Source: Eubacteriales bacterium
Lineage (GTDB): Bacteria > Bacillota > Clostridia > Lachnospirales > Lachnospiraceae
Length of the DNA stretch: 44,599 nt
Assembly (NCBI GenBank): GCA_030536575.1
Contig: JAUNPS010000039.1
Span: forward strand, 1 to 44,599
Direction of reading: 5' to 3'
In this document: positions 827 through 12,488 of the stretch, in pieces
Layout of the letters: every line of letters starts with the position of its first letter
How positions within the stretch are numbered: position 1 is the first letter of the stretch
Translations under genes and position numbers: made by a program
Notes under the pieces: generated by a model
Databases searched by the model: none
What the model saw: only the letters and a program-made list of their open reading frames with translations
Told to the model about the DNA's origin: nothing

Positions 827-3553
827 TTAATTTCCGCTCACATTCGTCAAATTCAAATGCTTGATCTTCCGCAGGGCAATCAGATTCACAATCAGCGCAA
901 ACACCGCCCCCACGCCGCACGCATACAGGCACGCCGGAAGGCTCGGCGTCCGCACATAATGAATTGCCCCCGTCTCCACAGCCCGAATCACCACATAGGA
1001 CAGTCCCATTCCGAACACGCTTCCCAGGATCAGGCCCAGCACCGTCAGCACAATATTGTCCTTATAAATATAAGCTCTCGTCTCCTTCAGCGTGTAACCA
1101 TTGATCCGCATCACCGCCAGCTCCCGCGCCTTCCGGTTCATATGCATCACAATCTGATTCAGCAGCACCAGCACCGCCATCACCGCCGCCAGCAGCAGAC
1201 AGATTCCAATGACCGGATCGATCACATCCGAATTCGCCGTAAACTCACTGTTATCCTTCAGCGACAAAAATCCGTCCACATCCCGGACTTTCTCCAAAAG
1301 CCCATCGATGTCTCCCTTCAGAAGAAAGACGCACGCATCCTGTGCTTCCCCCATCGTTTCCTCAAAATAACTTGCAGAAGTCACAAACAGATGGTAAGGC
1401 AGGTAATGTTCGATCATTCCCGCAACCCGGAATTCCTTCACATTGCCCTCCGCGTCCAGGACTTCCACCGTACTCCCCTCCGTCAGGCCAAACTCTTCTG
1501 CCGCCCTTCTGGAAACCAGCAGTCCGTCTTCCGGCACCTCCAGAATTTCCTTCGTCTTCCCGTCCTCCAGAACCATGAACTCTTTCAGCTCTTCGGCGTC
1601 GTCTACAGCCACAATCCGCCCATTTTCCCAGTTTCCGCCATCCACCCGGAAGTGCTCCAGCTTATCCTGAATCAGCGTATAGGAAATCCCCTCTTCCTCC
1701 AGAATCGTCTCGAATTCCTCCGCCGAGCCAAGGCTGCTGTCAAACACCAGCCGGTTTTCATAGAGGAAATACCGGTCAAACTGCCAGACCGATGAATTCG
1801 CGATCGCCAGCTTCAGCGAAAAGCAGATGAGCAGCAGCGAAATACATCCCACCACGCCCATGATCGTCGTCATCATCCGTCCCTTATCATTCAGGACATT
1901 CTTAATCATCGTGCGGGAATACAAATTCAGCCTCCGGTAACATTTCCAGTTTTCAAAGAAAAATTTCTTTCCCTGCTCCGGAACCTCTCCCCGCAGCAGC
2001 ACCGTCGCCGGCTCACGCACCAGCTTCGCACAGGCCGCATACGTGGCCGTCAGGAACACCACCAGGCAAATCCCTGCGGAAATCAGCGCTTCTTTCCATG
2101 CAAACGCAAAAGGAATCTTCCCCAGTAGAAATTCCGGCGCATAAATATACAACACAATCACTTCCACAATTCCCACACTGGCCGCATACCCGATCAGGAT
2201 TCCCACAAAAGCGCTCAGCGTATTGTACAGCAGATAATGCTTCAGGATCTCCCCTGGCCGGAATCCAAGCGCCTTCTGCGCCCCGACCAGAGCCCGCTGC
2301 TCCTCAATCATCCGCTTAATCGCCGCATGGCACACGATAATCGCGACCAACAGGAAAATGATTGACATCGAATAACTCAGCCCGAAAATTCCGTCCACTA
2401 ATGTCCGCACACCGCGCACATCTCCGATCTCATTCCGGTCAGAAACCATCCATTCCTTAAACGAAATTTCCGCTGCCTCTTCTTCGGCCTCGGCAAGCTC
2501 TGCCCGGCTCTCTTCCAGTTCCGCCTTCGCTTCTTCAAGCTGTGCTGAGCCCTCCTGATACTCTGTAATTGCATTCTTCAAAGGAAGCGCCGTCTCGCCA
2601 AACACTTCAAGCTGTTCCTTCGCTTCCTCTAAATCCGTCGTCACATTCAGAACCGTCAGTTGTTTTTCGATTTCTTCAAGCGCGTTCTCCAGTTCTGTTT
2701 CTTTCTCCGAAATTTCCTGCTCCGCGTCCTCCAGTTCCTCCCGCGCGTCCGCAATCTCCGCCTCCGCTTCCTCTTTCAGCGACGCATAGCGAAGCTCTGC
2801 GCGTTCCTCTCCCAGCTCCTCGGCCATCTCTTTAAACGCCGCCTCCAATTCCGCATAGTCGTCCGAATAATAGTAAAACGCGTCCATCGAAGCATTGCGC
2901 ACAGAAACCGTGGAAAAACAGTCATCATAATAAGAGGTGTCAAACGCCGCCTTTGAAAGACCTATGTAATACGAAGCGGCTCCAAGGCCTTCCGTACTTT
3001 TCCCTCTCGAATCACAGACATTCGCACAGCTAAACATTGGCAAATTGATGATCGCTGTTACCCGAAACGTATCTGAGTACAGGCCCTCATTCTGCTGCAA
3101 TGTGAACTCATCCCCCACCTGCAGTCCCTTTTCTTCTGCGAATTTCTCCTCAATCGCCGCCTCATTTTCCGCCGTCGGCAGCGTTCCTTCCACCACCACA
3201 GGAACATTGATTTCCTCTCCAAGCGAAAGCGCCTGCAAAGTGATCTTCTCATCCGCCCCATCCATGATTACCATGGAAGTATAGCCGCCCTCTGCCGCGT
3301 CCACGCCGTCCCATCCGGCAATCGCTTCGAGATCCTCCTGCGTAATCCCATTGGCACAGGAAATCTCCAGATTTTCCAGGCAATTCTCCCGGTAATAGCG
3401 ATCCGCCCGCTTCAGAATCGCATCCGCTGTGGACTGGAACCCCAGAAAAATCGCAATGCTCACCGCCGCGATAAAACCCACTGCGAAAAACGAAACGCCG
3501 TTCTTCCGGATCGTCCGGAACAAATGCTTCCGTCTTGTCTTCTTCATCACCAT
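827..3553 (-). CDS. FtsX-family ABC transporter permease with extracellular coiled coil
   Basis: This 908-residue membrane protein has the two-unit FtsX/MacB permease architecture. One membrane helix near residues 18-38 is followed by a large external region to about residue 385, whose second half (about 250-370) is a glutamate/alanine-rich coiled coil. Three helices follow (about 388-515), then a helix near 565-590, a second external domain (about 590-770) and three C-terminal helices. It starts at ATG 3553 with AAAGGAG upstream; GTG 3550 and ATG 3547 are in-frame alternatives. The start overlaps the stop of the ATPase gene, so the two are translationally coupled. FtsX-type exporters move lipids, peptides or lipoproteins or regulate cell-wall enzymes. 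No substrate can be read from the sequence. The coiled coil suggests contact with an outside partner, possibly the FecR-domain protein encoded next. Confidence 0.9.
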   Translation of the reverse strand: MVMKKTRRKHLFRTIRKNGVSFFAVGFIAAVSIAIFLGFQSTADAILKRADRYYRENCLENLEISCANGITQEDLEAIAGWDGVDAAEGGYTSMVIMDGADEKITLQALSLGEEINVPVVVEGTLPTAENEAAIEEKFAEEKGLQVGDEFTLQQNEGLYSDTFRVTAIINLPMFSCANVCDSRGKSTEGLGAASYYIGLSKAAFDTSYYDDCFSTVSVRNASMDAFYYYSDDYAELEAAFKEMAEELGEERAELRYASLKEEAEAEIADAREELEDAEQEISEKETELENALEEIEKQLTVLNVTTDLEEAKEQLEVFGETALPLKNAITEYQEGSAQLEEAKAELEESRAELAEAEEEAAEISFKEWMVSDRNEIGDVRGVRTLVDGIFGLSYSMSIIFLLVAIIVCHAAIKRMIEEQRALVGAQKALGFRPGEILKHYLLYNTLSAFVGILIGYAASVGIVEVIVLYIYAPEFLLGKIPFAFAWKEALISAGICLVVFLTATYAACAKLVREPATVLLRGEVPEQGKKFFFENWKCYRRLNLYSRTMIKNVLNDKGRMMTTIMGVVGCISLLLICFSLKLAIANSSVWQFDRYFLYENRLVFDSSLGSAEEFETILEEEGISYTLIQDKLEHFRVDGGNWENGRIVAVDDAEELKEFMVLEDGKTKEILEVPEDGLLVSRRAAEEFGLTEGSTVEVLDAEGNVKEFRVAGMIEHYLPYHLFVTSASYFEETMGEAQDACVFLLKGDIDGLLEKVRDVDGFLSLKDNSEFTANSDVIDPVIGICLLLAAVMAVLVLLNQIVMHMNRKARELAVMRINGYTLKETRAYIYKDNIVLTVLGLILGSVFGMGLSYVVIRAVETGAIHYVRTPSLPACLYACGVGAVFALIVNLIALRKIKHLNLTNVSGN

Positions 3554-4767
3554 ACCAACTCCTTTGCCTTGGCCGGATGCCGGTTCAGGATCACTTCTGA
3601 AACCACGCCGCCCTTCATTCGGATTACACGGTTCGCCATCTTGGCAATCTCCTCATTGTGCGTCACCATCAGAAGCGTTGTACCGGACTGGATCACCTCT
3701 TCCAGCACCGTCAGCACCTCAATGCTTGTCTCATAATCCAAAGCTGCCGTCGGCTCATCCGCCAGGATAATCCGCGGCTTTTTCACAAGGGCCCTGGCAA
3801 TGGACACGCGCTGCTGCTGGCCGCCGGACATCTGCGCCGGATAATTTCCCTTTCTCTGCGCCAGCCCGACCCGCGCCAGTGCCTCCCCCGCGTCCATGGA
3901 GTCCTCGCACAATTCCCCGATAAACTCCAGATTTTCCTCTGCCGTCAGCGTCGGCATCAGATTGTAAGCCTGGAAAATGAACCCGACGGAATGTCTCCGG
4001 TACTCGGTCAGCATTTTGTCGTCCGCCCTGGAATAATCCGTCCCGTCGAACAGGAAGGTGCCGGTGGTGAGCTGATCCATGCCGCCAATAATATTCAGCA
4101 TCGTGGACTTTCCGCAGCCGGACTCCCCTAAGATCACCAGAAATTCCCCTTCCCGGATATCCAGATTCACGCCCTTTAACACCTGAATCTGATTTTCCCC
4201 GGAACCGAAGGTTTTCGTCACGTCCCTTAACGAAATGATGGCCTTCTTGCTCTCGGTAAACCCAAGGTTCAGGCCCCTGCCGTCCACCGCGATGGCTGTC
4301 AGCATGGCCAGATTTTCACACAGGCTCACATCCTCGTCATTGTACAGCGAGCCGTCCTTTTTATTAATGATCTGGATGCAGCCGATCACTTCATACTTAT
4401 TCACCAGCGGCACGCAGACCATACTTTTGGTCACAAACCCGGTGGCCTCGTCGAAACGGCCTGCCCACCGCTCATCGTTCTGGCAGTCTTTTACCACCGT
4501 GGGTTTTCCTTCCCGGACGACCGTCCCTGCAATGCCTTCGCCGGGCGCCAGGCTTAATCCCGTCAGATCCGCCCCGCCGATCCAGAACGACGGATAGATC
4601 CGCTGATCTCCCGCCGCATTGTAAAACCAGATCGTACCGGCCTCCGCGCCGACTGCCTTTACCACTTCGTTTAAACTTGCCCTCAAGGCGTCTTCCAGGG
4701 ATTCTGCTTCCTGCAGCATGCGGGTAATCTCCCAGACCACCTGGGTATAACCGATTTTTTTATTCAT
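3547..4767 (-). CDS. GAF domain fused to LolD/MacB-type ABC ATPase
   Basis: The 406-residue product has two parts. Residues about 15-165 are a GAF domain ([15 protein letters not shown], then [21 protein letters not shown]). Residues about 180-400 are an ABC ATPase with Walker [10 protein letters not shown] near residue 214, Q-loop ([13 protein letters not shown]), signature [10 protein letters not shown] and Walker [12 protein letters not shown]. The ATPase belongs to the LolD/MacB group that drives FtsX-type permeases, which matches the next gene. GAF domains bind small cytoplasmic ligands or redox signals, so the fusion suggests transport gated by an internal signal; this is inference. ATG 4767 is preferred, with AGAAAGG 11 bases upstream. 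A TTG at 4788 is the longer alternative. The gene heads the operon behind the twin-palindrome promoter. Confidence 0.9.
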
Positions 4768-4810
4768 GCAAACACCGACCTTTCTCAAATTCTAACATTG
4801 TTATTATTTT

Positions 4811-4839
4811 ATCATGGATTCGAAAACGGCCTTTTGCAA
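4811..4839 (-). promoter_or_regulatory. Probable promoter of the GAF-ABC/permease/FecR operon
   Basis: On the minus strand a TTGCAA -35 (4839-4834) and a CATGAT -10 (4816-4811) are separated by 17 bases, about 45 bases before the GAF-ABC start. The -10 is only a moderate match. The -35 overlaps the nearer of two palindromes. Confidence 0.45.
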
Positions 4840-4867
4840 CTTATGCAGATTTTTTGCATCTTATGCA
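4835..4867. promoter_or_regulatory. Twin palindromic operator candidate
   Basis: Two 13-base elements of form TGCAN-CTT-ATGCA lie at 4835-4847 and 4855-4867. The second is a perfect inverted repeat around three central bases and the first has one mismatch. Their centres are exactly 20 bases apart, about two helical turns, so a dimer pair would sit on one DNA face. They overlap the likely -35 of the operon. No regulator gene is adjacent on this side. Confidence 0.5.
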
Positions 4868-4878
4868 AAGGAGTGCAT

Positions 4879-4913
4879 TAAAAAAGACACCTGCCGTTTT
4901 TTTGCAAGTGTCT
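4879..4913 (-). terminator. Intrinsic terminator after the DUF1622 gene
   Basis: Read on the minus strand, AGACACTTGC (4913-4904) pairs with GCAGGTGTCT (4894-4885) with one G-U pair around a 9-base loop, followed by a run of T. It ends the GNAT/DUF1622 transcript before the GAF-ABC promoter. Confidence 0.85.
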
Positions 4914-4921
4914 GTCTGCTG

Positions 4922-5257
4922 CTATGCTTTTCGTTTTTCCGCTTCTTTCTCTTCTTCTTTAATTTCCCAGTGAAGCAGGAAGGTCAGCGCCGCCCGCAGC
5001 GCGATAATCCCTGCAACAATGGCGATCTCATTCCACTCCCGCACGCTGACGGTACGAAGAATCTCGCTCCCCAGCTTAAATTCCAGCCCCATCGCCAGGC
5101 CTTTTCCCAGATAAATCCGCGTTTCCGGCCTCCGGCGTATGTACTTGTAAAAGCTTACCAGGCTTGTCCAGATAATAATCCCGACTCCGATAAACTCAAA
5201 AAGCAAAATGCCGGCTTCAACCAGTTTCTCTAAAACCATTTCCAAATATGCGATCAT
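4922..5257 (-). CDS. DUF1622 family small membrane protein
   Basis: The 111-residue protein has a hydrophobic segment near residues 13-36 (LLFEFIGVGIIIW), a basic loop with RRRPETRIYLGKGLAMGLEFKLG, and a second pair of hydrophobic stretches near 62-95. It ends in a charged tail (KEEEKEAEKRKA). The middle motif and size match the DUF1622 family of small bacterial membrane proteins of unknown function. Its ATG overlaps the TGA of the preceding acetyltransferase-like gene (ATGA), so the two are coupled in one operon. A terminator follows 8 bases after the stop. Function unknown. Confidence 0.85.
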   Translation of the reverse strand: MIAYLEMVLEKLVEAGILLFEFIGVGIIIWTSLVSFYKYIRRRPETRIYLGKGLAMGLEFKLGSEILRTVSVREWNEIAIVAGIIALRAALTFLLHWEIKEEEKEAEKRKA

Positions 5258-6312
5258 TTGTGTTCTCCTTTGGCTTCCAGTACCTTTTTCATGACTTTAT
5301 AAGATAAGTCCATTTCGCCGATATCCATTCGTTTTTCCCGGATCGTCCGGTAGCCCCGGTGTTCGTAGAAGGCTTCCGCCGGGATCGAAGCTTCCAGTTC
5401 CGCGGAAACGTTCTTCTTCTTAATCTGCCATTCCAGTTCTTCCATAATGCGGGTGCCAAAGCCGCGCCCCTGTTCTTCCGGGAGCACAAAAACCCGCATC
5501 ACGTGATTCTTTTCCCGGCTTCCGGTGCCGACCAGCTTCCCGTCGCAGAACAGCATTCCCACATAATTTCGCTCGATATCCGCCAGGATCCGGTATTCGC
5601 TGTGAAGGAACAGAAAGTAATGGATGGCCGATATGGGGTAATGCCGGGGATAAATGTTCCGGATCGTGCGTTCTACGAGACTGGCAATGCGCCTGGCGTC
5701 CTTTTTTTCCGCCCGCAGCCAGACTATCACCGGGCCTTCCTCCTGGCGCTCGATCGTCTCTTCTACGCTGACGATGCGCTCCCGGACTTTCCGCACTTCC
5801 TGCACTTTCCATTCGTCCAGAAGCGGAAGAAAGTCCGGATCTTTTGTGGCGCGGATTTTTTCCAGGACGTCAAAGACCACCTGGCGGTTTCCGGTTTTCA
5901 GTTCGGAAACGATCTGCAAGTCTTTTGCCTTTGCCGCCCGAAGGCACCGTTCGAACAATTCTTCCGCATAGGTTTCCCGCTCGATTTCCCAGCCTTTGTC
6001 CGTAAACTCCAGCACCGGGAGCCTTCCATTATAGGTGACGCGCAGGTAGGCCTTCTTAATCATCCAGTCTACCCGGTGGGAAATTTCTTCGAGCGTCATT
6101 GATTTATAATATCCGTAGGCCGGGCATTTGTCCAGTTGGTATTCCAGGAGCCGATGGTCCGCGGAGCCTTTCAGGATTTTGGTCAGCATCGCGCGGCCGC
6201 CGACGCCGTTCACTTCATCGGCTGCGCGCAGGATGACTTTGATTTCGCCCTCCGGCAGCCTGCGGATATCTCCCGCATTTAAGGTGTACGTCATGTTTCT
6301 CTGTCTGTTCAT
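5254..6312 (-). CDS. RQC-like winged-helix domain fused to GNAT acetyltransferase
   Basis: The 352-residue product appears to have three parts. Residues about 1-110 resemble the small winged-helix RQC-type DNA-binding module found outside RecQ (VGGRAMLTKILKGS, then TLEEISHRVDWMIKKAYL). Residues about 115-190 form a charged helical linker. Residues about 195-345 are a GNAT fold with the acetyl-CoA loop motif PEEQGRGFGTRIMEELE and a typical final strand (AFYEHRGYRTI). GNAT enzymes transfer acetyl groups from acetyl-CoA. The substrate is unknown, but the N-terminal domain suggests action on or near DNA or RNA. The start at 6312 has GGAG 11 bases upstream; an ATG at 6294 is possible. The stop overlaps the DUF1622 start. 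Confidence 0.75.
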   Translation of the reverse strand: MNRQRNMTYTLNAGDIRRLPEGEIKVILRAADEVNGVGGRAMLTKILKGSADHRLLEYQLDKCPAYGYYKSMTLEEISHRVDWMIKKAYLRVTYNGRLPVLEFTDKGWEIERETYAEELFERCLRAAKAKDLQIVSELKTGNRQVVFDVLEKIRATKDPDFLPLLDEWKVQEVRKVRERIVSVEETIERQEEGPVIVWLRAEKKDARRIASLVERTIRNIYPRHYPISAIHYFLFLHSEYRILADIERNYVGMLFCDGKLVGTGSREKNHVMRVFVLPEEQGRGFGTRIMEELEWQIKKKNVSAELEASIPAEAFYEHRGYRTIREKRMDIGEMDLSYKVMKKVLEAKGEHK

Positions 6313-8741: not shown

Positions 8742-8794
8742 CCCCGCAGGAAACCTGTGGGGCGGCCGCATGCGCCCTCTTTGGAGGGCTTTTT
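8742..8794 (+). terminator. Double hairpin terminator after the isomerase-like gene
   Basis: A first stem (CCGCAGG with CCTGTGG, about 8745-8761) is followed by GCCCTC-TTTG-GAGGGC (8774-8789) and TTTTT (8790-8794). The second hairpin is a textbook terminator on the plus strand and sits against the stop of the convergent helicase gene. Confidence 0.85.
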
Positions 8795-11700
8795 ATTCTT
8801 TCATAAAATCAAACAAACTTATCTGCCGTTCCTTCGGCTCCTCTCTCCTGGTCTTCTCCCTCCTGCTTTCCTCCTCCGGGATCTCTTCCAGAAATGCGGA
8901 GGCTTCCCCGGAAGTCACCAGAATCAGCTCTTCTTTCGCCCTGGTCATTCCCACGAAAAACAGCCTGCGCTCTTCTTCGAGATCCGTTTCACCTTTCGTA
9001 CTCTCAAGGGGGATCATGCCTTTTCGGACGCCGCACAGGAATACGACGGGGAATTCCAGGCCTTTCGAGGCATGGAGGGTCATCAGGGTGACGGCGTCGG
9101 CGCGGTAACTTTTGCCTCCGCACCGCCGAAGGTCGCCTTCTTCGCCAAAGGTCAGCCCGTCCAGCATTTCCTCCATGGTGCGGTAAAAAACAGCCATGGA
9201 AAGGAGCTTCTGCATGGATGGGTCAGCGTTCAGTTCGCAGTCCTCCATCCATTCTTTCAGGAGTTTTTGAGGACGCGTTTTTGCAAATTTCGGTAAAAAT
9301 TTTTCTTTTTTGTTTTCCAGGATCAAGTCGCCCAGCTCGTTTCCGGACAGGTTCCATAACAGCTTTCCGGCCTGCAGCCCAAGAGCGGTTTCTTCCGGAT
9401 TTCGCAGGAAGGCAAAAAATGCGAGTGTTCCCTGAACGGATGCTGCCTCCAGGAACGGTTCCCGGCCTGCTACGACGTAGGGAATCCCCTCCCGCGCAAG
9501 GCATTTTTCCAAAAGCTCCGCCTGGTAATGGGTACGGTACAGCAGGGCAATGTCGGAAAAGCTCCTGGGTTTGGCTGCTTCGCCGTGTTCGGAATGATAC
9601 TGGGAATCCAGCATGTCAATGCCGCCCACCAGGCGGTTAATCTCCTTTGCCGCGAAGATGGCTTCGGACAGCTCGCTTTTGGCCGTCACGATGCGCACCG
9701 GGCCGCCTGGTTCCCGGAAGGGATGCAGGGTGCGGGCTTCGCCTGGGTTCTTCGAGATCACGGCCATAGCGCTCCCGACAATCTGCGGGGTGGAACGGTA
9801 GTTTTCTTCCAGACGGATCACGGACAGCTCCGGGAAGTCGGCGGCAAAGCGTTCGAAGCATTTCGCGTCAGAGCCGCGGAAACCGTAGATGGACTGATCC
9901 GGGTCGCCGATGACGAAGAGTTCTTTTCCGTTCCGGCTCCAGGCCTGGATCAGCCGGTACTGTAAGGGGCTGATATCCTGAAATTCATCTACGTGGAGGT
10001 AGGAAAAGGCTTTTTCGTCTGTACCGCCCGCTTCCAGTTCGTGCAGGGTTTCCAGCAAAAGGTCGTCGAAATCCAGGCGGCTTTCGGCTTTCATGCGCTG
10101 GATGTAGGCGTCGGCCGCGGCCTGGAATGCGGCGGCTTCTTCGGGTTCCATTTCCGGCTGGCCGCCTGTTTTGAGCCGGGATACCAGGTTCCGGAATTTT
10201 TTCGGTTCGATGGCCAGGCCGTGTGCGGCGGTCACTTCTTCCGCCAGTTCCAGCGTGCGCCCTTCGTCGGCCAGGCGGAAGGTATGGCCTTTCTTTTTCA
10301 GGAAGTCGAAGCAGATGGCATGGAAGGTTCCGACGGTGAGGCCGCGCAGGGCGCGCTTGCCACCCAGATTCTGTTCCAGCCTTTCGCGCATTTCTTCGGC
10401 GGCTTTGCGGGTGAAGGTGACGGCGGTGATTTCGGTGGGTTTGACGCCGCGTTCCCGGATCAGGTATTGGATGCGGGAGACGAGGGTTTTGGTTTTTCCG
10501 GAGCCTGGCCCGGCGATGACGGCGACGGCGCGGTTCAGGGCACGGACGGCCTGGGCCTGCATCGGGTTCAAAATGTCGGAAACGCCTGGCTTTGGCCCTG
10601 CCTGGATAGCTGCTCCGCTATGGTCGGGTGCGGATTTTTTCCCGGCGCATGTCGTTTCCGCGCCGCGAGCCATCGCCGCTCCGCCTGGACCTCCTTCGGC
10701 GAATGCCGCTTCTGTGCTGTGGGTGATCGCCGCTTCGCCTGGGTTTTCTCCGGCGCTCTCCGGAATCCCCATCACCGCAAACAAACTCATCTGCCCATCC
10801 ACATTTTCCAACTCATCCTGCTCAAACAACTCAATCTTCCCATACTCCCCATCAAATCCCGGCCTCCTGCGCACCTCCCCGGCCCGCAGCCTCCGGATCC
10901 CCTCCGCCGTCATCCTCCCGGCCTCTTTTCGGATCTCCTCAACCGGAACCTCCCGCAAAATCTCAAACTCACTCCCCAGCTTCCGGATCAGCCTCCCATA
11001 CTGCGCCTCCACCTTCTTGCTGGCCGCCGAGCTCCCCGTCGAAGCCGCAATCACCTCCGGCAGCGGCACCAGGCTCTCAAACGCCTTCGCCTCCGGCTTC
11101 ACAAAGCCCTCCTCCCGATCCGCCAACTGCTCCACCCGGTGAGAAACCCCGATCGTCAGCTTCCGCCCGCAGATCGGGCATTTCCCGCCCAGCTTCTCCG
11201 CCTCGGCCGGCTTCAGGCACAAATGGCATTTCCGATGCCCGTCATAGTGGTACTTCCCTTCCTCCGGGAAAAATTCAATGGTTCCTTCCAGCCCTTCGCC
11301 CTCCTGGATGGCCCTGGAAAGCCCCGCATAGGACAGCTCCGTGTCCAGCAGGTTCGCCTCCCGTCCCAGCTTCGCCGGCGAATGCGCATCCGAATTCGAG
11401 ATCAACTGATATCCATCCAGAGCCGAAATCCGCCAGTTCATCGGCGGATCGGATGACAGTCCCGTTTCCAGCGCACGGATCTGCGGCGTCAGATCTCCGA
11501 AGCACTCCTCGATCGTGTCAAATCCGGAAAAGGCCCCGAACAGCGAAAAATGCGGCGTCCAGATATGCGCCGGAATGTACATCCCGGACGGACAGATTTC
11601 CAGCATAATTTCCAGCAGATCGTGACAGTCCAGACCCAGGATCGGCCGCCCGTCCGAGTGAATGTTTCCAATCGTTTCCAGCTTTACGGACAGCTTCTCC

Positions 11701-12044
11701 GCGTCCTCAAGCCCCGGCAGCAGCAAAACGCTGTGAACCTTCCGGACTTTCTCATTCTTTTTATAGATCGAACTGATCTCCCCGGAAACCACAAACCGGG
11801 GGCGAAAATCTTCCTTCGCCCCTTCCTCCAAAATCCGGTATTCGTCTTTTAAAACATACAGGCCGTCCTCCGCCGGAACCAGCTTTTCTTTCAGTTCTTC
11901 CCTCCAGGCCGGATGGGTAAAATCCCCCGTCCCCAGAAGCCCGATGCCTTTCCGTCTGGCCCAGAGTTCCAGGTGCTCCGGCGTGCAGTCCCGGCTGGTG
12001 GCGCGGGAATAGCGGGAATGGATATGCAGATCTGCAATGTACAT
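8793..12044 (-). CDS. Endonuclease Q-like PHP nuclease fused to UvrD/PcrA helicase
   Basis: The 1083-residue protein joins two repair enzymes. Residues 1 to about 400 resemble endonuclease Q: a PHP metal site (DLHIHSRYS), GDFTHPAW, SGEISSIY, HIWTPHFSLFG, SNSDAHSP, and a zinc finger CHLC...CPIC (about 273-292). EndoQ nicks DNA 5' of deaminated bases or abasic sites. A low-complexity linker of degenerate repeats follows (about 425-490). From about 500 on it is an SF1A helicase: Walker A AGPGSGKT, DEFQD, GDPDQSIYGFRGSD, TLHASKGLEFP and FVGMTRAKEELI. QMSLF at 418-422 and QISLF at 1074-1078 both fit the sliding-clamp-binding consensus. GAGGGGGAG precedes ATG 12044. It is the last gene of an operon with two small proteins. 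Confidence 0.9.
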   Translation of the reverse strand: MYIADLHIHSRYSRATSRDCTPEHLELWARRKGIGLLGTGDFTHPAWREELKEKLVPAEDGLYVLKDEYRILEEGAKEDFRPRFVVSGEISSIYKKNEKVRKVHSVLLLPGLEDAEKLSVKLETIGNIHSDGRPILGLDCHDLLEIMLEICPSGMYIPAHIWTPHFSLFGAFSGFDTIEECFGDLTPQIRALETGLSSDPPMNWRISALDGYQLISNSDAHSPAKLGREANLLDTELSYAGLSRAIQEGEGLEGTIEFFPEEGKYHYDGHRKCHLCLKPAEAEKLGGKCPICGRKLTIGVSHRVEQLADREEGFVKPEAKAFESLVPLPEVIAASTGSSAASKKVEAQYGRLIRKLGSEFEILREVPVEEIRKEAGRMTAEGIRRLRAGEVRRRPGFDGEYGKIELFEQDELENVDGQMSLFAVMGIPESAGENPGEAAITHSTEAAFAEGGPGGAAMARGAETTCAGKKSAPDHSGAAIQAGPKPGVSDILNPMQAQAVRALNRAVAVIAGPGSGKTKTLVSRIQYLIRERGVKPTEITAVTFTRKAAEEMRERLEQNLGGKRALRGLTVGTFHAICFDFLKKKGHTFRLADEGRTLELAEEVTAAHGLAIEPKKFRNLVSRLKTGGQPEMEPEEAAAFQAAADAYIQRMKAESRLDFDDLLLETLHELEAGGTDEKAFSYLHVDEFQDISPLQYRLIQAWSRNGKELFVIGDPDQSIYGFRGSDAKCFERFAADFPELSVIRLEENYRSTPQIVGSAMAVISKNPGEARTLHPFREPGGPVRIVTAKSELSEAIFAAKEINRLVGGIDMLDSQYHSEHGEAAKPRSFSDIALLYRTHYQAELLEKCLAREGIPYVVAGREPFLEAASVQGTLAFFAFLRNPEETALGLQAGKLLWNLSGNELGDLILENKKEKFLPKFAKTRPQKLLKEWMEDCELNADPSMQKLLSMAVFYRTMEEMLDGLTFGEEGDLRRCGGKSYRADAVTLMTLHASKGLEFPVVFLCGVRKGMIPLESTKGETDLEEERRLFFVGMTRAKEELILVTSGEASAFLEEIPEEESRREKTRREEPKERQISLFDFMKE
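10606..10765 (-). repeat. Degenerate tandem repeats in the nuclease-helicase linker
   Basis: The segment coding the linker holds two units of about 54 bases that are roughly 75% alike over 43 bases (GGCGNAGCGGCGAT at their sense starts), plus a third partial unit 66 bases further on. The encoded units read GEAAITHSTEAAFAEG and GGAAMARGAETTCAG. The spacing keeps the frame. Confidence 0.55.
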
Positions 12045-12056
12045 ACGCTCCCCCTC

Positions 12057-12233
12057 TTACCCGATCACGGTGTATTCCATCATTTCGTAGGCAAGATGGC
12101 TCCCCACGTTCGTTTCCGGGGGCAGAAGCGCCCTTGCCACGCATTTTAATTCTTCCTGTTCATGGCCGATCTGTTCCAGATAGGCGTAGTCGCCTGCCAG
12201 GTCTTTTACAATGTAGTCGATTCGTTCAAACAT
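12057..12233 (-). CDS. Small conserved-looking acidic protein, 58 residues
   Basis: A strong AGAGGAGG lies 6 bases before ATG 12233. The frame runs 58 codons to TAA at 12059-12057, coding a protein that begins MFERIDYIVKDLAGDYAYLE and ends HLAYEMMEYTVIG. It is mostly helical, with one cysteine, no membrane segment and no signal peptide. It sits 12 bases after the preceding small gene and 12 bases before the nuclease-helicase gene, so all three are almost certainly one transcript. I do not recognise the family. The position suggests an accessory or regulatory partner of the repair enzyme, but nothing in the sequence proves that. Confidence 0.8.
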   Translation of the reverse strand: MFERIDYIVKDLAGDYAYLEQIGHEQEELKCVARALLPPETNVGSHLAYEMMEYTVIG

Positions 12234-12245
12234 GTTTTTCCTCCT

Positions 12246-12488
12246 CTAGGGCCAGTTTTTCAGCTCCTGTAAAAGCGCTTCTTCGTAGTTTCCTTCGATC
12301 TCTTCGTCTTTTCCGGCATTCCGGATATTCGTCTCCACACCGTTCGCCTCCGCCTCATCCGCGAATTCCCAGATGTGATAGGGCACGCCCCGGTAGAGGA
12401 AATCCAGGCTGCCAAGCCCGTCCTCTTCGGTGTAGGTAAAGGCAATATTCTTTTCTTTCAGCAAGTCCTGTACGCTTTGTAAACGCAT
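12246..12488 (-). CDS. Small acidic hypothetical protein, 80 residues
   Basis: ATG 12488 has AGGGAGG at good spacing; an upstream in-frame start at 12518 lacks a site. The protein begins MRLQSVQDLLKEKNIAF, has a compact alpha/beta-looking middle (GLGSLDFLYRGVPYHIWEFAD) and an acidic C-terminus (DEEIEGNYEEALLQELKNWP). I do not recognise a named domain. It is the first gene of the operon that continues with the 58-residue protein and the EndoQ-UvrD fusion. Its AT-rich upstream region (12519-12600) contains TATATTATAG on the minus strand as a possible -10, without a clear -35. Confidence 0.75.
   Translation of the reverse strand: MRLQSVQDLLKEKNIAFTYTEEDGLGSLDFLYRGVPYHIWEFADEAEANGVETNIRNAGKDEEIEGNYEEALLQELKNWP

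Follow-up and report, generated by a model that had tools for sequence, protein, structure and literature searches.

The window analysed here is a stretch of 44,599 nucleotides, contig JAUNPS010000039.1 from the genome assembly GCA_030536575.1 of a Lachnospiraceae bacterium, and the subject here is a gene of its reverse strand in which a nuclease of the endonuclease Q (EndoQ) type is joined to a superfamily 1A (SF1A) helicase of the UvrD/PcrA type. The gene is a single open frame of 1083 residues without internal stop, and both of its halves were matched independently, which bears out the joint architecture put forward by the first-pass annotation. Moreover, the two pentapeptides proposed there as clamp-binding motifs, QMSLF and QISLF, were found at exactly the residues given, the former behind the nuclease half and the latter at the C-terminus of the chain (Table 1).

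Table 1. Features of the EndoQ-UvrD fusion gene, in window coordinates
Feature	Position	Strand	Basis
EndoQ-UvrD fusion gene	8793..12044	-	1083-aa open frame, ATG start; Shine-Dalgarno-like GAGGGGGAG at 12048-12056, 5' of the ATG
EndoQ half, PHP nuclease, residues 1-409	10818..12044	-	phmmer to PfuEndoQ; ligands intact
Putative zinc-finger ligands H270, C273, C289, C292	11169..11237	-	59-row alignment and alignment to Pfu; ligand role taken from Pfu
Variable linker, residues 410-489	10578..10817	-	column identity of residues 405-439 (51-row alignment)
Candidate clamp motif 1, QMSLF, residues 418-422	10779..10793	-	motif counts and column conservation
UvrD/PcrA-type SF1A helicase half, residues 490-1046	8907..10577	-	Pfam domains; ATPase motifs intact
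Candidate clamp motif 2, QISLF, residues 1074-1078, C-terminus	8811..8825	-	motif counts

Conservation was read from the best 80 of at least 588 relatives (at least 591 pattern matches) retrieved by a contig scan. In 79 of them both halves follow one another in a single frame, which contig ends or frame breaks interrupt in some, and in the remaining one, a Nitrospirae locus (L079), nuclease and helicase are encoded separately in two adjacent frames. Residues 4-409 of the fusion align by phmmer with residues 5-385 of the Pyrococcus furiosus (Pfu) EndoQ (5zb8; E 7.3e-49). In an alignment of 82 rows, comprising the window protein, the 79 single frames and the two frames of L079, the PHP residues D5, H7, H9, E89, H104, H160, E193, D219 and H221 are the same in all rows in which they are covered (79-81 of 82, the remainder being gaps). 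Replacement of these ligands in homologues, named beforehand as a sign against the proposal, was thus not seen, and a degraded nuclease was rejected because the ligands are intact. E89, H104 and H160 correspond to Pfu E76, H84 and H139, whose alanine mutants lost activity (PMC8307549; this and the other articles below are cited from the portions of their text that were available). The pocket residues H160, G195 and S197 are likewise identical wherever covered (79-81 of 82 rows, the remainder gaps), and their counterparts H139, G169 and S171 are reported to keep normal T and A out of the Pfu pocket (PMC8307549). The pairs H270-x2-C273 and C289-x2-C292 do not vary over the 59 rows of a further alignment. 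They align with the zinc site of the Pfu enzyme, of CPxCG type, with one Pfu cysteine position taken by His in the fusion, and form a putative metal site.

The helicase half contains both UvrD domains above their curated cut-offs (PF00580, E 3.2e-62; PF13361, E 1.6e-42), and its closest solved structures are those of UvrD, PcrA and Rep. Residues G512, G514, G516-T518, D686, E687, Q689, D690, G713, D714, Q717, Y749, R750, H991, R1027, T1034 and R1035 are invariant in 59 rows. The stretch expected to hold subdomain 2B spans 93 residues between the matched parts, compared with 145 in PcrA (about 50 residues fewer), and varies from 59 to 136 residues among the relatives covering it in a whole frame. 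The fusion scores 336.6 bits with the pcrA equivalog model, whose cut-off is 911.2, and falls in a separate group of the helicase tree, on which grounds a PcrA orthologue was rejected.

Pentapeptides of the QxxLF type bind beta clamps, and the pattern Q..[LMI][FLYW] was used to count them. In the first sample, the 82 rows left 81 linkers after removal of one shorter than 20 residues, and 76 tails after removal of six shorter than 10 residues. The pattern occurs in 57 of the 81 linkers, against a mean of 6.0 and a maximum of 18 in 1000 composition shuffles; 55 of these linkers carry it at the register of residue 418, and the other two, L033 and L082, at another place. Among the 76 C-terminal tails it is present in 67 (shuffles: mean 5.3, maximum 13). 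For a second sample, 50 fused frames were drawn from a separate genome search and aligned with the window protein in 51 rows: a Q stands at the 418 register in 45 frames and the full pattern in 28, and the C-terminal pattern is present in 43, two of the seven misses (L166 and L171) reaching the contig end before the C-terminus. Column identity over the 51 rows is 0.92 at E411, 0.96 at G417, 0.90 at Q418, 0.65 at L421 and 0.84 at F422, the remaining columns from 405 to 439 staying at or below 0.59 (gap columns aside), and 0.94, 0.92 and 0.92 at Q1074, L1077 and F1078 of the second motif. A chance origin was rejected by the shuffles in the first sample together with the second sample, and the motifs, whose lack of conservation across relatives the first-pass annotation had named as refuting its idea, are kept at a fixed linker register and at the C-terminus. 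In the split locus L079 the EndoQ protein ends in QGTLF and the adjacent helicase in QMGLF. Furthermore, the host genome has a DnaN-family gene, and its three Y-family polymerases carry QLSLF, QLTLF and QYDLF in their last 90 residues, so the clamp motifs of this host probably resemble those of the fusion. The fixed register, the similar pentapeptides of the Y-family polymerases and the presence of one motif on each L079 protein support clamp docking, and both pentapeptides are candidate beta-clamp docking motifs.

The search for homologues suggested at the outset revealed a widespread architecture, under about a dozen phylum labels: Bacillota, Gemmatimonadota, Latescibacterota, Calditrichota, Chloroflexota, Nitrospirota (the split one), Spirochaetota, Planctomycetota, Zixiibacteriota, Bacteroidota (Kapaibacterium), SAR324 and Proteobacteria. 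These labels come mostly from the record titles of metagenome-assembled genomes and may in part be mistaken; L063 and L068, though near-identical, stand under two phylum names. The EndoQ family model TIGR00375 matches 153 of 299 genomes of the phylum; among the matches listed, 31 lie in frames of at least 950 residues (31 genomes), and all 31 are fused, 29 being matched by both halves, one (G032) showing both and one being the window protein itself. In 200 genomes of the same family there are 27 matches, of which 25 are strong (22 fused, two stand-alone and one with an in-frame stop), so that within this family the gene occurs patchily and, where present, is fused in almost every case. The member with the stop, which lies in the helicase half (L141, genome G402, 2992-6237), is either an assembly error or a decaying copy. 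In another genome (G001), two genes of this EndoQ clade, one fused and one stand-alone, lie about 10 kb apart and in opposite orientation on a 16-kb stretch (L125). Origins as a phage or plasmid gene were rejected, since none of 132 matching phage records and none of 2,977 matching plasmid records had one place covering 80% of the query; the matches listed (10 for each) all fall in the helicase half.

The family history was approached with quick-mode trees on thinned samples, all with long-branch warnings: 95 of 166 EndoQ rows for the main EndoQ tree, 67 rows for the EndoQ identities and 56 rows for the helicase. In the main EndoQ tree, 79 rows form one group with a starred support of 100, made up of 67 fused and 11 stand-alone rows and the split L079, and the other 16 are classical Bacillota EndoQ. 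Mean identity over the 67 rows is 34.2% between Pfu EndoQ and the fused clade, 33.7% between Pfu and classical Bacillota EndoQ, and 28.1% between the fused clade and the classical group; the EndoQ halves are one clade, and by these values it and the classical group are about equally distant from the Pfu enzyme. Because the stand-alone rows are dispersed within the clade and the starred branches require at least six state changes, repeated helicase loss appears as the simplest reading; no helicase match was found in the fetched flanks of the 11 stand-alone members (for L134, a downstream flank of only about 0.5 kb). In the helicase tree, 42 fused halves and the split one are parted by a starred branch of 99 from 13 lone helicases, which were hand-picked (the host frame L001 among them) and show no clamp pattern in their last 45 residues (masked there in L187). 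L079 is nested in the EndoQ tree (89) and sits in the basal multifurcation of the helicase tree, being either a split or a pre-fusion state. Altogether, the trees would fit one ancient fusion.

Compared with known systems, the nuclease half resembles Pfu EndoQ (5zb8, 7k30-7k33) in its alignment, metal ligands, pocket residues and zinc site. The archaeal form is, in contrast, a stand-alone protein of about 420 residues, to which the fusion, at some 34% identity, adds a helicase and two bacterial-type clamp motifs. Archaeal EndoQ has a C-terminal PCNA motif with demonstrated PCNA binding, and clamp-like motifs were also reported in the C-terminal region of bacterial homologues (PMC4858679). Classical Bacillota EndoQ, of which we assume the Bacillus subtilis and B. 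pumilus enzymes to be members, shares the family model and the active-site residues with the fusion, and differs in being stand-alone, in its high TIGR00375 scores, in its mean identity of 28% and in its separate group in the tree. A close-up view of the classical sequences (L088-L107) shows that their first PHP motif is mostly DLHIHIG or DLHVHIG, as opposed to DLHIHS and similar forms in the fused clade, and that the loop between the equivalents of E89 and H104 is shorter in most of them, hinting at a different handling of substrates. With PcrA, UvrD and Rep the fusion shares the ATPase motifs and both UvrD domains above cut-off; it departs from them in its score below the pcrA cut-off, its shorter 2B stretch, its C-terminal clamp motif and its separate grouping. 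The Gabija protein GajB is also a UvrD-like helicase partnered with a nuclease, whereas the fusion has no GajA among the matches listed and carries an EndoQ nuclease in the same chain.

Activity of bacterial EndoQ was already known (cited in PMC6202378), and in the published scheme the lesion-bearing strand left after the EndoQ cut is removed by Fen1 flap cutting or by EndoV with a helicase (PMC4357722). No printed description of the helicase fusion, the second motif or the separate clade was found in the open-access literature, most subscription papers lying outside the search, so that absence is unproven; in their available portions, PMC7776575 and PMC8307549 treat both EndoQ and UvrD without mention of a fusion. 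Therefore, the C-terminal clamp-type motifs of EndoQ and the bacterial activity are known, and what is apparently new is the joining to a helicase, together with motif 2 and the distinct clade.

The host genome (4.8 Mb in 100 contigs) contains two genes of the uracil-DNA glycosylase (UDG) family and further strong UvrD-family frames, namely L001 (746 residues, a PcrA-like length), which matches PF00580 more strongly than the fusion does (338 vs 215 bits) and clusters with the lone helicases, and L003 (1270 residues), perhaps AddA. Because of these genes, the fusion is not the only uracil repair route of its host and need not be a housekeeping helicase. A replacement of UDG was rejected on account of the two UDG-family genes, and a partnership with EndoV because EndoV gave no match in the host genome.

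Directly upstream of the fusion and on the same strand lie two small frames of 58 (12057-12233) and 80 residues (12246-12488), and a three-gene operon is possible. Neither is conserved with the fusion: among 175 fetched sequences, the 58-residue frame has no relative and the 80-residue frame has one (55%), which in L162 follows directly downstream of the fusion. The other neighbours identified in the window are an FtsX-type permease with an ABC ATPase, a GHKL-domain protein, a xylose-isomerase-like TIM barrel, CstA and a 352-residue protein (5254-6312, reverse strand) that combines an RQC-minor-1 domain (NF041107, above cut-off) with a GNAT acetyltransferase domain. When the flanking frames of 131 loci were clustered, with flanks often of only about 3 kb that make the counts lower bounds, few conserved neighbours appeared: the fusion cluster comprises 129 loci, and the next ones 17, 10 and 9 at most. 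The 9-locus cluster consists of seven uvrB and two mfd genes. Seven of the 131 loci, all of a Moorella-like lineage (L056, L117, L119, L163, L164, L165 and L169), have uvrB upstream of the fusion and in the same orientation, about 0.2-0.9 kb from the fusion frame and in most of them with a short opposite-strand frame between, and in L117 and L119 uvrA is the next gene downstream, giving the order uvrB-fusion-uvrA. Profile hidden Markov models (HMM) identified uvrB in L119 and uvrA in both L117 and L119, the other uvrB genes being assigned by clustering. In two Blautia-labelled loci, L010 (by HMM) and L017 (by clustering), an mfd gene stands about 3 kb upstream. This uvr neighbourhood sets the fusion among strand-excision genes in one lineage, and the substrate is not fixed by it.

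From an observed architecture with intact active-site residues, conserved motifs and a single family in the trees, we infer substrate, nicking, unwinding, polarity, clamp binding and order of events as follows, and consider it reasonably probable, judging from sequence, that the fusion serves in repair as a clamp-docked nick-and-unwind enzyme. Its nuclease half would find a flipped-out altered base (by analogy with Pfu EndoQ, uracil, hypoxanthine or an abasic site) and cut 5' of the lesion, leaving a 3'-OH and a lesion-bearing 5' end. SF1A helicases translocate 3'→5', and the helicase half would load at the nick on the intact strand, travel 3'→5' away from the 3'-OH and peel the lesion-bearing strand off as a flap, the same geometry in which UvrD works from nicks during mismatch repair and following incision by UvrC. 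Meanwhile, a polymerase would extend from the 3'-OH, and a flap nuclease and ligase would complete the repair. Through the two motifs, nuclease and helicase would stay attached to the beta clamp, perhaps with one motif per cleft of the dimeric ring, and such docking could hold nuclease and motor at one site until the polymerase takes over.

This is essentially the one-protein pathway of the first-pass annotation, which gains from the kept PHP ligands and the conserved motifs, and is weakened by a first motif that is often imperfect and by a specificity borrowed from Pfu. Several observations weigh against it. The fusion scores 179.7 bits with TIGR00375, below the curated cut-off of 326.6, with the whole profile matched; the cut-off is strict, as it is reached by one of the 299 genomes of the phylum while 153 match. 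Given this score and mean identities of 28% with the classical Bacillota enzymes and 34% with Pfu EndoQ, substrate specificity may differ from that of characterised EndoQ, and the assignment to deaminated bases is a weaker point, carried over from Pfu at about 34% identity. The first motif is off-pattern in 22 of the 50 frames of the second sample (QMDFF, QLCFL and EPSLF among other forms), and the clamp pattern is absent from the last 40 residues of all 16 classical Bacillota EndoQ sampled, at odds with the 2016 report in PMC4858679, as far as its available text goes. In addition, the 11 sampled clade members without helicase indicate that the nuclease half can persist alone. None of them has the motif-1 pattern in its last 40 residues, which is suggestive of a motif serving the nuclease-helicase partnership, and suggestive rather than proof since truncation removes helicase and motif together. 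The EndoQ and helicase trees conflict for L060, L070 and the L063/L068/L069 group, so that an exchange of halves, or long-branch and other tree error, is possible. Finally, no biochemistry of any member of the fused clade was found in the literature searched.

The most substantial alternative keeps the same machine and changes the lesion: the fusion would work with, or back up, UvrABC on bulkier or oxidised damage instead of deaminated bases. The uvrB-fusion-uvrA order of L117 and L119, the upstream uvrB of five further Moorella-like loci and the mfd genes of L010 and L017 speak for it, as do the distance of the fused clade from characterised EndoQ and the two UDG-family genes already present in the host. 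Nevertheless, H160, G195 and S197 correspond to the pocket residues by which Pfu EndoQ reportedly rejects normal T and A (PMC8307549), and the uvr context is limited to one lineage, most of the 131 loci having no common neighbour, which leaves this option rather unlikely. A more modest idea, that the joining of the halves serves only stability or co-expression and that the Q-x-x-L-F motifs bind something else or nothing, draws on the many non-canonical forms of motif 1 and on the 11 helicase-less members that manage without it. It is harder to reconcile with a fixed register and C-terminal position in two samples, far above shuffles, with the similar pentapeptides of the host Y-family polymerases and with the one motif retained by each protein of the split L079, and we regard it as doubtful, more so than a change of lesion. 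An anti-phage nuclease-helicase akin to Gabija would explain why PADLOC models of GajB and one DRT helicase model match the helicase half and why presence is patchy (strong matches in 25 of the 200 family genomes), and a review proposes that bacterial EndoQ may act in antiviral defence (PMC8307549). Among the matches listed for the fusion (25 of 53), however, all fall in the UvrD core; GajA is absent among those listed for eight window proteins, the neighbours identified are non-defence genes, one lineage has the uvrBA context, and no matching phage (0 of 132) or plasmid record (0 of 2,977) covers 80% of the query at one place, all of which makes a defence role very improbable.

Under the clamp-docked nick-and-unwind reading, the fusion bears on an open point in the field, namely what follows EndoQ cutting: a natural EndoQ-UvrD chain with two clamp motifs would show which activities evolution couples to the EndoQ nick, and would make the subsequent pathway testable in one purified protein. 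Bacterial EndoQ, said to occur in only a few genera (PMC4357722), is widened to a distinct and broadly distributed clade. Whether this clade is a third EndoQ subfamily, spread under about a dozen phylum labels, that forms a single-polypeptide repair pathway is in our view an even matter; if so, damage nicking, helicase loading and the docking of both modules on one clamp ring would constitute an excision pathway not yet described, intermediate between nucleotide incision repair and strand removal in the style of mismatch repair.

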